Assembly (NCBI RefSeq): GCF_026319325.1
Contig: NZ_JAPDMU010000001.1
Coordinates: forward strand, 372,001 to 436,000
Length of the DNA stretch: 64,000 bases
Reading direction: 5' to 3'
From: Methylophaga sp. OBS3
Lineage (GTDB): Bacteria > Pseudomonadota > Gammaproteobacteria > Nitrosococcales > Methylophagaceae
Within the stretch, counting starts at the first letter, position 1; each line of letters starts with the position of its first letter. The position numbers and the translations under genes are program-made. This document shows, in pieces, positions 5,875 to 25,628 of this stretch. The notes beneath the pieces are model-generated. The model saw nothing but the letters and a program-made list of their open reading frames with translations. It did no database searches and was not told the origin of the DNA.

Positions 5875-6162
5875 TTATTTGGGATTGTACTCATCAAAGC
5901 GATCGATGTATTCATCGAGATTCGTCACCATCATTTCTGCAAAACGCTGAGCGAAATACTCAATGATTTTGTCTTTTTCCTCTTTTAGCTGTTCAGCACT
6001 TTCAAATTGCGGTGCTGTGCTAAATACATTAAAACGTGCGGCAGAAAACAGTAATGCCGAATTTACATTTTCGGCTTCTGTGTCTTGATGCTGCTGGTTA
6101 GCAAGGTCAATAAACTCATCACAACGTTGTTGAAACGTTTTTTCAGGGGCGTTTTCGCTCAT
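5875..6162 (-). CDS. DUF3144 family small acidic protein
   Basis: 95 residues, acidic, soluble, no signal peptide or membrane helix. The pattern CDEFIDLANQQ near the start, then SALLFSAARFNVF and a C-terminal FAQRFAEMMVTNLDEYIDRF resembles the DUF3144 family of uncharacterised proteobacterial proteins. The predicted fold is mostly helical. A clear intrinsic terminator follows it, and it starts just downstream of the cupin gene on the same strand (40 bp gap), so the two may be cotranscribed. No function can be assigned. Confidence 0.75.
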   Translation of the reverse strand: MSENAPEKTFQQRCDEFIDLANQQHQDTEAENVNSALLFSAARFNVFSTAPQFESAEQLKEEKDKIIEYFAQRFAEMMVTNLDEYIDRFDEYNPK

Positions 6163-6201
6163 TTTCTCTCTCGTTCGTTATAGTTAGTTTTGGTATTTGG
6201 A

Positions 6202-6552
6202 TTAACCAAAAATAGACTTTACACGATTGACCAAAATTTTCACCCGGCACAAGAAACATTTAATGAATTTGCCGTCTGCGTGTTTGAAGTGTTTTTTGAA
6301 GTTTTTGGTCACTTCCCATGTGCCTTTGAAGCCATTTGGGAAAATAACCAAATCACCGGCTTTAAAGCTCACCGCTGGGCTGCCATCTTCTGGTGTCATC
6401 ACACATTCACCCTCAAGGATGTATGCATATTCAGTGGTGACAAAGTGCCAAGGAAAAATTGAGACTTCTTTTTGCCATGTCGGCCAGTGTTTCACGCCGA
6501 GTTTCTTCAGTTTAGCTTCGCTTGGGTTGCTTTCTACGATGATTTGTTTCAT
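6202..6552 (-). CDS. Cupin domain protein (DUF861-like)
   Basis: 116 residues from ATG at 6552; an upstream in-frame extension lacks support. A single small cupin barrel is seen, with FPWHFVTTEYAYILEGE and PAVSFKAGDLVIFPNGFKG, resembling the DUF861 (cupin_3) family. Classic metal-binding histidines are only partly present. The family normally ends about where WEVTKNFKKHFK stands; here about 25 further basic residues (to VKSIFG) follow, which may be a divergent tail or the result of a late frameshift. Substrate unknown. Confidence 0.75.
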   Translation of the reverse strand: MKQIIVESNPSEAKLKKLGVKHWPTWQKEVSIFPWHFVTTEYAYILEGECVMTPEDGSPAVSFKAGDLVIFPNGFKGTWEVTKNFKKHFKHADGKFIKCFLCRVKILVNRVKSIFG

Positions 6553-7146
6553 GTCACTGCCTAATCTATTCACACCGACAATCGATATGATTTCAAGGGA
6601 AAGTAGGGTACGTGATTAGCGGTGATTTTCATAGAAAAGATGCCTCTTTAAGCAGTTAACCATGCAGCATCTAAGTCCGACAAACAAAGTAAAGTTTCAT
6701 GACTATTAAAAGAGCTTTTGATAAAGGTGCTAAGGCTGATGACTCTGCGAGAAAGTAACAAATCCCATGTTTTAATTAATTTTATCTGGCCTCTATAGAT
6801 TTAATTGATAGTCACCCGAATGATGAGGTAACAGCGCCTGATTGAGGCAATTAAAAGAGAAGGTATCTCAGAAAAAAAAGCTTTATTTGCGGCATTAGAA
6901 CCAATGAAAAAAGCTAAATTTCAAGATGTAAATTGCTGGTGTAAGAATTAAAGCTTTGTGGTTTATGCAGTGGACAAACTTGAAAAGACCTATCAAGTTA
7001 TTTTAGACGACCGCTAATCTAGCGATTGAAGAATGCGTTAGATTGCATTAGAAAATAACAATAAATGGCTTTTTATATTGTGTCTACTTGGCTCTAGACA
7101 ATAGAAAGTCGAGGTAAGTAGTAGTCGATATTTCCTAATTAAAAAT
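6553..7146. other. Gap with decayed coding sequence, no intact gene
   Basis: About 590 bases without a convincing gene. It contains short forward frames that start and stop quickly: 6699-6758 (MTIKRAFDKGAKADDSARK), a 38-codon stretch at 6838-6951 containing SEKKALFAALEPMKKAKF, and 6958-7017 (VVYAVDKLEKTYQVILDDR) in other frames. These look like remnants of one or two genes broken by frameshifts. I do not recognise the family. The sequence is clearly richer in A+T than the neighbouring housekeeping genes. Confidence 0.5.
6838..7017 (+). pseudogene. Possible frameshifted gene remnant, family unknown
   Basis: A forward frame from 6838 to 6951 (QRLIEAIKREGISEKKALF and on) lacks a start codon, being preceded by TAA, and ends at TAA; another frame 6958-7017 continues with VVYAVDKLEKTYQVI and ends at TAA. 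The charged, helix-like composition looks like real coding sequence, and the frame break between the two suggests decay. No domain could be named. Confidence 0.3.
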
Positions 7147-22122: not shown

Positions 22123-22833
22123 ATGGAAAAACGACAAGAACTCTACGCTGGTAAAGCAAAAAGCGTCTTCGCGACTGATGATGCTGATTATGTAGTACTG
22201 AGCTTTCGTGATGACACCTCAGCTTTTGATGGCGAAAAAGTTGAACAACTTAGCCATAAAGGTGAAGTAAATAACAAGTTTAATGCCTTCATTATGCAGA
22301 CGCTAGCTGATGCTGGTATTGAAACGCATTTTGAGAAACTGCTGAACGATACCGAGTCAGTTGTTAAACGCATGAACATGATTCCAGTTGAATGTGTTGT
22401 GCGTAATGTTGCTTCGGGCAGTTTAGTTCGTCGCTTAGGCGTGGAAGATGGTATGGAGCTAAATCCTCCCGTCTTCGAGTTTTTCTTGAAAAACGATGCA
22501 CTGCATGACCCAATGGTCAATGAATACCACATCGCAACATTTGGTTGGGCTACCGATAGTCAAGTACAACAAATGAAGCAACTTACTTTTAAAGTAAACG
22601 AAGTGTTGAAAAAGCTATTTGCTGATGCCGGCATGGTGTTGGTTGACTACAAATTAGAGTTTGGTGTCTTCCATGACCGCGTCATTTTAGGTGATGAATT
22701 CAGTCCTGATGGTTGCCGTTTATGGGATGCTGAAACACGCAAGAAACTTGATAAAGACCGTTTCCGTCAAGGCTTAGGTGGTGTTATCGAAGCTTATGAA
22801 GAAGTTGCCCGTCGCATTGGTGTACCTTTGTAG
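22123..22833 (+). CDS. purC: Phosphoribosylaminoimidazole-succinocarboxamide synthase
   Basis: 236 residues, the usual length of bacterial PurC. It ligates aspartate to CAIR with ATP in purine synthesis. Recognised stretches are [13 protein letters not shown] (phosphate loop), [31 protein letters not shown] and [11 protein letters not shown], followed by [12 protein letters not shown]. It ends the dapA-bamC-MBL-purC unit and is followed by a strong terminator. Confidence 0.97.
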
Positions 22834-22857
22834 TGCTCAGTTTATAAAGTGATTAAC

Positions 22858-22890
22858 CAAAGCCCGGCATGTCCGGGCTTTGTTGTTTTG
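22858..22890 (+). terminator. Rho-independent terminator after purC
   Basis: CAAAGCCCGG-CATGT-CCGGGCTTTG is a perfect 10 bp stem followed by TTGTTTTG, 24 bp past the purC stop. Confidence 0.85.
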
Positions 22891-22996
22891 GGCTCAGGAT
22901 TTTTCTGAGCTAAATTAGGTAAAACTCGCTATTGCTTGATGTTGATTATGCGTAAATTAGGAAGCATAGTAATTTTTAACAACAGGAGATGGCGTT

Positions 22997-23068
22997 ATGT
23001 GGACCAAACCAGAATACTCAGATATGCGTTTCGGTTTTGAAGTAACAATGTACATCTGCAATCGTTAA
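22997..23068 (+). CDS. pqqA: PQQ precursor peptide PqqA, copy 1
   Basis: 23 codons starting ATG at 22997, with ACAGGAGA about 8 bases upstream. The peptide begins [13 protein letters not shown] and ends EVTMYICNR. The Glu and Tyr of the E-x-x-x-Y motif (E15, Y19) are the two residues that the radical SAM enzyme PqqE crosslinks to build pyrroloquinoline quinone. PQQ is the cofactor of methanol dehydrogenase. No pqqB, C, D or E gene is in this window, so the precursor is supplied from here to enzymes encoded elsewhere. An identical peptide is encoded 174 bp downstream. Confidence 0.93.
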
Positions 23069-23070
23069 AC

Positions 23071-23160
23071 ATGACTAATTATCAACCGTCAGAAATTGGT
23101 TTTATGGATTGGCTAAAGCACCCAATGCAGTGCACCTGTCCAATTTGTAGTGCAAATTAA
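23071..23160 (+). CDS. 29-residue Cys-rich peptide between two pqqA copies
   Basis: An ATG two bases after the first pqqA stop opens a frame of 29 residues starting [18 protein letters not shown] and ending [10 protein letters not shown]. Three cysteines (CxCxxC) in the last third could bind a metal or be modified. There is no Shine-Dalgarno of its own, so translation would rely on re-initiation after pqqA. Its TAA stop runs straight into AAGGAG, the ribosome site of the second pqqA, leaving no free spacer in the array. I do not recognise it as a known peptide; it could be an unrelated short protein, a second ribosomal-peptide precursor, or a chance frame. Confidence 0.45.
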
Positions 23161-23170
23161 GGAGCTCATT

Positions 23171-23242
23171 ATGTGGACTAAACCAGAATATTCAGACATG
23201 CGTTTTGGCTTTGAAGTAACAATGTATATCTGCAATCGTTAA
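23171..23242 (+). CDS. pqqA: PQQ precursor peptide PqqA, copy 2
   Basis: 23 codons from ATG at 23171 with a good AAGGAG site eight bases ahead. The peptide is identical to copy 1, including E15 and Y19, although the two genes differ at six third-codon positions, all silent. The flanking DNA is not similar, so the duplication is not recent and the peptide sequence has been held constant. Multiple pqqA copies are known in some methylotrophs and are thought to raise precursor dosage. A terminator follows. Confidence 0.93.
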
Positions 23243-23260
23243 TCAAGCTTTATAAATACA

Positions 23261-23291
23261 AAAAAGCCTCGCTAGTGCGGGGCTTTTTTTG
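23261..23291 (+). terminator. Rho-independent terminator after the pqqA array
   Basis: AAGCCTCGC-TAGT-GCGGGGCTT with one mismatch and a seven-T tract, about 20 bp past the second pqqA stop. It marks the array as its own short transcript. Confidence 0.85.
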
Positions 23292-23426
23292 TTTGAAATT
23301 CAGTTAAGTGAACTTGTTCAACGAACCTGATGTGCACAACCGTTATGATATGGCTACAATGAAGCTGACACATTAGTGATTCACTAATGTGTTTATAAAG
23401 AATTTATAACAAAGGGAGCGATATCT

Positions 23427-23567
23427 ATGCGGCAAATGATGATTTTGCTGGCAACCGTGATGGTTATCAGTGTCAGTGCATGTCATAAAGTACACAAACC
23501 CATGCCACCAGGTCATGATCCGGATGGTCCTGGCAATAGTGAGAATGCTCCCGGCCACAATAAATAG
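23427..23567 (+). CDS. Small lipoprotein, His/Pro/Gly-rich
   Basis: 46 residues from ATG at 23427 with AAAGGGAG seven bases ahead. The N-terminus MRQMMILLATVMVISVSAC is a short lipoprotein signal with lipobox VSAC; the mature part (about 27 residues) is rich in His, Pro, Gly and Asn, for example HKVHKPMPPGHDPDGPG. It would be lipid-anchored and could bind metal through its histidines, though this is only a composition-based guess. A shared terminator follows directly. It lies between the pqqA array and the convergent metG gene. Confidence 0.65.
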   Translation: MRQMMILLATVMVISVSACHKVHKPMPPGHDPDGPGNSENAPGHNK

Positions 23568-23570
23568 GCC

Positions 23571-23602
23571 AAAAAAAAGCCCCGATTGTTCGGGGCTTTT
23601 TT
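23571..23602. terminator. Bidirectional terminator between small lipoprotein and metG
   Basis: GCCCCG-ATTGTT-CGGGGC flanked by eight A on one side and six T on the other. It serves the lipoprotein gene on the plus strand and metG on the minus strand. Confidence 0.85.
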
Positions 23603-23603
23603 G

Positions 23604-25628
23604 TTATTTAACGCGCATACCGGGCGTGGCACCATCATCCGGATTTAAGATAAACAAATCTTTACCACCAGGACCTGCCGCTAAGACCATGCCTTCTGAC
23701 ATACCAAATCGCATCTTACGAGGGGCTAGATTAGCGACCATGACCGTGAGTTTGCCAATCAAGTCTTCAGGTTGGTAAGCCGATTTGATACCAGCAAAGA
23801 CCTGACGTTCACCGGCGCCGATATCTAAAGTCAGTTTCAGTAATTTGTCTGCACCTTCGACATGTTCTGCATTGACGATCTTGGCAATACGCAAGTCGAT
23901 TTTGGCAAAGTCATCAAACTGAATTTCATCAGCAATTGGATCGATATAGCTTGCTGGCGCTTTGTTAGTGATTTTTTGTTCAGCTTGCAGAGTTTCGCGA
24001 GACTCTTCGATGATGGCATCGATTTTATCTTGTTCCACACGTGTCATTAATGGTTTGAAAGCATTAATGGTTTGGCCTAACAGTGGCGTATTGATATCAG
24101 CCCAAGTTAGTGGGGCAATATTCAAGAAGGCTTCTGCCTGCTCAGCTGTTTTTGGTAATACCGGTTTGAGGTAAGCCACCAAAACGCGGAACAGATTAAT
24201 ACCCATGCTGCAAATTTGCTGAACTTCAGCATCTTTGCCTTCTTCTTTAGCAACAACCCAAGGCTTTTGCTCATCAATGTACTGATTCGCTTTATCAGCC
24301 AGTGCCATGATGTCACGCATAGCCTGACCAAACTCACGCTGTTCATAACGCTGAGCAATATTGTCAGCTTGCTCAGTAAAGCTAGCGAATAACTCTGGGT
24401 CAGCTAAGGTATCTGTTAATTTACCGTCAAAACGTTTGTGAATAAAACCAGCACAACGACTAGCGATATTGACAACTTTACCGACTAAGTCAGCATTGAT
24501 ACGGCTTTGGAAATCAGCAAAGCTTAAGTCGATATCATCAATACCACTACCCAGTTTGGCAGCAAAGTAATAGCGCAAATATTCTGGGTTGAGGTGGTTC
24601 AGATAAGTACGGGCTTTAATGAAAGTGCCGCGTGACTTAGACATTTTCTTACCATCAACAGTTAAGAAGCCGTGCGCATAAATGCGGTTCGGTAATCTGA
24701 AACCGGCACCTTGGAGCATGGCAGGCCAAAACAGCGCGTGGAAATAGATAATATCTTTACCAATGAAATGCACCATTTCGGTTTTACTGTCGGCGTTCAT
24801 GAATTCATTGAAATCAACACCGCTACGATCACAATAATTCTTGAAGCTGGCTAAATAACCAATCGGGGCATCCATCCAGACATAAAAGAATTTGTTCGGG
24901 GCATCTGGAATTTCAAAACCAAAGTAGGGCGCATCACGTGAAATATCCCAGTCTTGCAAACCTGACTCAAACCATTCGCCAAGCTTACGACCAACTTCAG
25001 TTTGCAGATGATCGCCTTGCGTCCATTCACGCAGTAATGACTCAAAGTTACCGAGTTTAAAAAAGTAATGTTCTGAGTCTTTTGTGATTGGGGTTGCACC
25101 AGAAACTGCTGAAACAGGGTTTTTCAGTTCGGTCGGATCGTAAGTAGCACCACAAGCCTCACAGTTATCACCGTATTGATCAGCAGCACCACATTTTGGA
25201 CATTCGCCACGAATAAAACGATCCGGCAGAAACATTTCTTTTTCTGGATCGTAAGCTTGGCTGATGGTGCGGCTTTCAATATTGCCGGCATCGCGGTTTG
25301 CTAAATAAATTTGGCTGGCTAAAGTGCGGTTTTCTTCGCTATGGGTGCTGTGATAATTATCAAAGCCGATAGTGAATTCAGCAAAGTCAGCTTGGTGTTC
25401 TTTGCTGACATTGGCAATTAATTGCTCTGGTGTGATGCCTTCATTTTGCGCACGCAACATGATTGGTGTGCCATGCGCATCATCAGCACAAACATAGTGA
25501 ACATCATGGCCACGCATTTTCTGAAAGCGAACCCAGATATCAGTTTGAATGTATTCCACTAAGTGGCCGAGGTGGATTGAGCCATTGGCATAGGGTAAAG
25601 CGCTGGTGACCAGAATTTTGCGTTGCAT
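23604..25628 (-). CDS. metG: Methionyl-tRNA synthetase
   Basis: 674 residues, the long bacterial form. Signatures of class I synthetases are present: HIGH-type [11 protein letters not shown] near the start and [10 protein letters not shown] in the middle. The zinc knuckle [18 protein letters not shown] is intact. The anticodon-binding helical domain follows, and the last roughly 105 residues ([20 protein letters not shown]) are an EMAP II-like tRNA-binding domain that makes the enzyme a dimer. It charges initiator and elongator tRNA-Met. Ends at a bidirectional terminator. Confidence 0.98.

Follow-up and report, generated by a model that had tools for sequence, protein, structure and literature searches.

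A Cys-rich small peptide gene following pqqA in some Methylophaga genomes, a possible accessory factor of PQQ production

Layout of the pqqA cassette

The window, a stretch of 64,000 nucleotides from the genome of Methylophaga sp. OBS3 (G000), contains a short cassette in which two pqqA genes bracket a small open reading frame, referred to below as the companion. The features of the cassette are as follows.

22894..22908, no strand assigned: predicted, probable operator palindrome TCAGGATTTTTCTGA, one mismatch (on the minus strand) from the consensus TCAGGAAAATCCTGA, 103 nt upstream of pqqA1
22984..22988, plus strand: ribosome-binding site AGGAG of pqqA1, read from the sequence
22997..23068, plus strand: pqqA copy 1 (pqqA1), 23-residue PqqA precursor (PF08042, 1.6e-11; TIGR02107, 1e-13)
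23071..23160, plus strand: companion peptide gene of 29 codons, conserved in 5 of 24 genomes of the genus, with silent-only variation at nine codons
23159..23164, plus strand: ribosome-binding site AAGGAG of pqqA2, read from the sequence, overlapping the companion stop codon
23171..23242, plus strand: pqqA copy 2 (pqqA2), peptide identical to the pqqA1 product with six silent differences, from sequence comparison
About 23260..23289, plus strand: intrinsic terminator hairpin and T run (folding energy of −19.7 kcal/mol, z of −5.6 for 23255-23297)

The two pqqA genes encode the same 23 residues and differ silently at the third positions of codons 3, 7, 9, 12, 13, and 19. The companion ATG lies two bases past the TAA of pqqA1, and the companion's stop codon (TAA) shares bases with the AAGGAG of pqqA2. 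The sequence reproduces exactly what the original prediction stated on these points. Both flanking genes are full members of the PqqA family, scoring 44.3 bits against a cut-off of 21.1 for PF08042 and 50.7 bits against a cut-off of 20 for TIGR02107. The cassette was also predicted to have its own terminator, and it does; a simple terminator scan of the window left the hairpin unlisted, and it was found from the folding energy. No ribosome-binding site of its own was seen in the sequence upstream of the companion ATG. The neighbors of the cassette are presumably purC and metG, as judged from their protein sequences. Just downstream, at 23427-23567, there is a 46-residue lipoprotein-like frame with a Cys after a signal-like start and a terminator of its own.

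Conservation of the companion peptide

Homologues of the companion were found in 5 of the 24 Methylophaga genomes (G000, G001, G003, G013, and G020, the last being M. muralis Bur 1). When 95 genomes, including that of OBS3 itself, were searched, four additional copies were retrieved (E below 1e-6). A profile run over the 24 genus genomes gave the five companions with E values no higher than 2e-19, and no other match had an E value below 0.02. Conservation in relatives and the absence of frameshifts had been set beforehand as the check on the frame, and the outcome was divided: none of the five copies is frameshifted, and the gene is absent from the other 19 genomes, 11 of which are rated at least 99% complete. 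As G001 and G020 are close kin, and likewise G003 and G013, the five copies amount to approximately three independent lineages.

Thirteen positions are invariant across the five peptides, and twelve of them fall within the C-terminal motif M12-x-W-L-x-H-P-M-x-C-x-C-P-I-C-x-A28. The invariant residues include five potential ligands (H17, M19, C21, C23, and C26) spanning ten residues. Counted over all pairs, the first, second, and third codon positions differed 72, 52, and 135 times across 28 codons, and 26, 16, and 77 times within codons 12-28. At nine C-terminal codons (15, 17, 18, 21, 23, 24, 25, 26, and 28), variation was silent only. Four pairs had dS values short of saturation and gave dN/dS ratios of 0.04, 0.16, 0.32, and 0.66, and the other six pairs had pS values of 0.90-1.08 versus pN values of 0.27-0.31. 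Judged by these comparisons, the companion frame is a real small protein gene under purifying selection, and the prediction of a conserved, selected gene paired with pqqA is borne out by the five genomes and the nine silent-only codons. The pair at 0.66 and the poor conservation of the first 11 residues weigh against this reading. The frame is short and present in only 5 of 24 genomes, as would be expected of a chance open frame in the spacer DNA of pqqA genes; the probability of this explanation is close to nil, as the silent-only codons and the codon-position bias over five genomes refute it in practice.

The companion is not itself a PqqA: no PqqA family model matched it at E up to 10, and the Glu-x3-Tyr pair of PqqA occurs in none of the five aligned peptides. 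As no PqqA model matches it, a role as a decoy, one of the roles suggested for it, is unlikely. Another suggestion, that it might be a second radical-SAM substrate, found no support, as the Glu-x3-Tyr pair is missing and the window holds no PqqE-type gene.

Linkage to pqqA and chromosomal sites

All five companions lie directly behind a pqqA stop codon, at a gap of 2 nt in three genomes and 4 nt in two, and no copy lacking a preceding pqqA was found. The pqqA-companion-pqqA sandwich occurs in G000, G013, and G003. In G001 and G020, pqqA and the companion are followed by a terminator-like hairpin without a second pqqA, so that the expectation of a companion always placed between two pqqA copies holds for three of the five cassettes. 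Because no ribosome site of its own was seen and the spacing is only 2-4 nt, the companion is probably made by re-initiation after PqqA.

The same geometry could mean that the frame works mainly through its translation, either by governing the ratio of PqqA1 to PqqA2 as a coupling or leader device, with its residues mattering little, or as a Cys-sensing leader. The tight spacing to pqqA1 and a stop codon overlapping or near the ribosome site of pqqA2 in three genomes fit such a device. We consider it quite improbable, as in two of the five cassettes (G001 and G020) the terminator follows the frame with no gene in between, and residue identity, beyond a mere open frame, is kept at 13 positions. 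The likeness to a transcription-attenuation leader fails in these same two genomes, in which a regulated downstream gene is absent, and the Rfam leader matches are below their gathering scores.

The cassettes occupy three unrelated chromosomal sites, and no neighbor gene of at least 50 residues was shared between the three sites within the stretches compared. When the G013/G003 stretches were compared with those of G001/G020 (up to 12 kb), the sole cross-match was a frame over the cassette itself. We take the G013/G003 neighbors to be an acetate-kinase-like gene some kilobases upstream and a LysR-type regulator gene and carboxylase genes downstream, and the G001/G020 neighbors to be FecR/TonB-receptor-like genes and a DUF945-like gene. 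In G016 and G007, which are relatives of G020, both flanks of the G020 site are present at a distance of 237 and 147 nt, respectively, versus 443 nt in G020, and the pqqA-companion unit is absent; the G016 site was also aligned. On a PqqE tree of 21 genomes (without G001, G010, and G015), which was used since rpoB was found in only 14 of the 24 genomes, the four carriers did not form one clade and required three changes. Hence, pqqA and the companion have been gained, lost, or moved as one unit.

The companion might instead be a selfish or hitch-hiking small gene spreading with pqqA repeats, the role of which is unrelated to PQQ, such as a stress or metal-tolerance peptide on a pqqA promoter. 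The patchy distribution on the tree, the three sites, and the empty sites in close relatives of G020 all fit this explanation; we judge it somewhat unlikely, as the companion was never found apart from a preceding pqqA.

In G013 and G003, both cassette pqqA genes encode a variant peptide (MWTAPAYQD...) that is absent from the other pqqA genes of these genomes. The cassette pqqA of G001 and G020 has N8, versus S8 in their other copies. A third, convergent pqqA faces the cassette from about 0.9 kb in G013 (L169, about 5900-7100) and G003 (L170). Their relatives G005, G006, and G002 have kept the convergent pqqA and the genes beyond it, and the peptide gene is absent from them.

Dispersed pqqA genes and a shared palindrome

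All 24 genomes of the genus contain pqqA. A total of 118 genes scored above the family cut-off (122 rows minus four spurious frames), with 2 to 9 per genome, and 101 of them encode the identical 23-residue peptide, which agrees with the long-term selection on PqqA that had been read from the window alone. The OBS3 genome has five pqqA genes at four places, all for this same 23-residue peptide, and a pqqE at C7:3001 behind the fifth copy at C7:804. As none of its three PqqE-like matches is within the range of the window on contig C3, the cassette does not have the adjacent pqqE of a pqqABCDE operon. The predicted lack of pqqBCDE genes nearby thus holds for pqqE. The cassette differs from such an operon both in this respect and in containing a gene outside the PqqA family.

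A terminator-like hairpin follows the stop codon by 13-33 nt in 96 of the 118 pqqA genes, some of which precede pqqE, as on C7 of the OBS3 genome. The other 22 comprise the five first copies of the cassettes, one gene with a hairpin at 81 nt, and 16 genes about 2-3 kb from a pqqE (15 without a hairpin within 400 nt and one with a hairpin at 231 nt).

The available excerpts of reports on methylotrophs (PMC11317620, PMC4109929, and PMC9851590) describe several pqqA genes, most of them away from pqqBCDE, in Methylophilaceae, Methylovorus MP688, and Methylorubrum extorquens; in the first of these, PqqA supply in MP688 is stated to have been reported as rate-determining. The pqqA copies of Methylophaga are multiple and dispersed in the same manner. 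Unlike these systems, as far as the excerpts (PMC11317620, PMC4109929, and PMC9851590) describe them, the cassettes carry a companion gene between or after the pqqA copies. Among the matches listed from the open-licence literature on multiple pqqA genes, no such peptide was described in the parts available, which is in line with the initial view of the middle peptide as undescribed.

Of the 115 first-copy pqqA genes, 109, including that of the window cassette, carry the palindrome TCAGGAAAATCCTGA with no more than 3 mismatches in their upstream 150 nt. This count describes rather than tests the association, as these upstream sequences also supplied the pattern. In the controls, the reversed pattern never came below 5 mismatches, and one shuffle per sequence never came below 4. 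A whole-genome scan served as an independent and fairer test: sites with at most 1 mismatch preceded pqqA in 3 of 3 cases in G000, 4 of 4 in G020, and 4 of 7 in G007, and one of the three G000 sites is that of the window cassette. We conclude that the palindrome is probably the operator of a pqqA regulon. Its position upstream of the cassette would place the companion in this PQQ-precursor regulon. The palindrome is missing before the second pqqA copies of the three sandwiches (6-7 mismatches), which fits transcription of each sandwich as a single unit. The palindrome has 1 mismatch in three of the five cassettes and is degenerate (4 mismatches) in G001 and G020, the two with a single pqqA, which speaks against the operon model proposed below. 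As a genus-wide element before nearly every pqqA, the palindrome makes the control of the dispersed copies directly testable.

The palindrome mostly precedes the dispersed pqqA genes (L069-L168) by about 100-130 nt. G007 also encodes a second, divergent PqqA (MQWKDPAYCDLRLGFEVTAYVFVR; L148 2998-3072, G007:C1:461749) directly before a second pqqE (G007:C1:462217), and the same palindrome with 1 mismatch lies upstream of this gene. A described regulatory RNA near the cassette was considered and rejected, as all 31 Rfam matches at E up to 1 were below the gathering score. Table 4 of PMC12530212 names a c-di-GMP riboswitch next to a pqqA of M. nitratireducenticrescens; none was listed at E up to 1 for the surroundings of the window cassette (22700-23700).

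Searches beyond the genus

A pattern scan of one genome each of 84,980 species found no companion homologue outside the genus; it returned four Methylophaga loci and one spurious frame, and with its two short patterns, its reach is limited to close relatives. This spurious frame, a Pseudoduganella locus (L173), was rejected as a homologue, as the resemblance is confined to 13 residues of a longer frame, the remainder of which is unlike the companion. The pattern scan likewise detected no homologue among viral contigs and plasmids, and the companion matched no entry of Pfam, NCBIfam, PHROGs, or PDB. A viral, plasmid, or phage-family origin was therefore set aside, with nothing found in viral contigs, plasmids, or PHROGs.

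When 369 genomes of the class were searched with the profile, all matches outside the genus were weak: 29 of the 31 matching genomes had weak matches alone (E of 0.0047 to 0.1). In the 18 of these 29 for which loci were available and inspected, none had the full motif and none had PqqA beside it; two stray matches to a loose pqqA-like pattern (L178 and L191) were dismissed as not PqqA. A partial likeness, HP-M-x(1-2)-C, was seen at four weak loci (L175, L178, L179, and L181), with C-x-C in three. The nearest, L175, reads ...FLKHPMQKCNCPSFVCF at the end of a 90-residue frame. We attribute the likeness of these 18 loci to chance, with a small probability that L175 is a remote relative.

Proposed role of the companion

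The usual account of PQQ synthesis requires nothing beyond PqqA-E and a protease. With pqqA in all 24 genomes and the companion in only 5, PQQ synthesis cannot generally depend on the companion. The cluster of one His, one Met, and three Cys in the companion, all invariant and confined to ten residues, points to soft-metal or thiol chemistry. Small metal-binding peptides with CPxC-type motifs exist, and the companion resembles them in this cluster of predicted ligands; it differs from them in matching no solved structure and no Pfam, NCBIfam, or PHROGs entry, and this lack of any matching family or structure tells against a metal- or thiol-binding role.

MNIO (DUF692) peptides, which include methanobactin and bufferins, offer another comparison. 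The companion is similarly small with a Cys-rich end, and an MNIO gene (PF05114, C3:761162) is present in the OBS3 genome; unlike in those systems, this gene is about 366 kb away, and the presence of MNIO genes does not follow that of the companion. The companion could be the precursor of a second peptide natural product. An enzyme encoded elsewhere, such as an MNIO/DUF692 oxidase or PqqE, would modify its Cys-rich end in trans, and the product would be set free as a small metallophore or cofactor. Its size, its place beside a known precursor, and its variable N-terminal half with a conserved Cys-rich C-terminus suit a leader-core layout, and MNIO genes are present in 20 of the 24 genomes, including four of the five carriers (the fifth, G001, is 55% complete). 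We regard this explanation as unlikely, given that 16 of the 20 genomes with MNIO genes have no companion, that the distant OBS3 MNIO gene has other genes around it and no such peptide was seen there, that the companion offers no Glu-x3-Tyr to PqqE, and that no neighbor gene is common to the three sites in the compared stretches, so that no enzyme travels with the companion. An MNIO or PqqE-type neighbor was also sought beside the cassette and rejected.

Among the functions suggested in the original prediction, a metal-binding helper is the most likely on the basis of the peptide composition. The more specific proposal that the companion is a PQQ-related metal- or thiol-binding helper is tentative, and we rate it somewhat below an even chance. 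Candidate partners by pathway knowledge are PqqE, an iron-sulphur enzyme, PqqB, a metal enzyme, and PqqA itself.

Under this proposal, the cassette would be one short operon of the dispersed Methylophaga pqqA regulon. As read from the sequence, a regulator would probably bind the palindrome near 22900 and drive a single transcript carrying pqqA1, the companion, pqqA2, and the terminator. PqqA1 would be translated from its own ribosome site, and ribosomes stopping at its TAA would restart at the companion ATG 2 nt further on; the conserved 2-4 nt spacing suggests that companion output would thereby be tied in ratio to PqqA. The second gene, pqqA2, with its own ribosome site, would raise the precursor dose. 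The companion end, W-L-x-H-P-M-x-C-x-C-P-I-C-x-A, might bind a soft metal (Cu(I), Zn, or Fe) or act as a cytoplasmic thiol partner, and the companion might help PQQ production through metal supply to, or shielding of, PqqE or PqqB, or through the handling of PqqA.

More broadly, some Methylophaga may possess in the companion an accessory factor for PQQ production that has gone unrecognized. Such a metallo- or thiol-peptide of roughly 28 residues, translationally locked to PqqA, would act in the maturation of PqqA or in the handling of PQQ or metal, or would itself be the precursor of a second peptide cofactor. To this broader reading, we assign a probability only just short of even. As a small protein under selection that was seen only immediately after pqqA, the companion would add either a new participant to PQQ synthesis or a second peptide to the output of the pqqA message, and it can be deleted in one of its carriers, the cultured organism M. 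muralis Bur 1.
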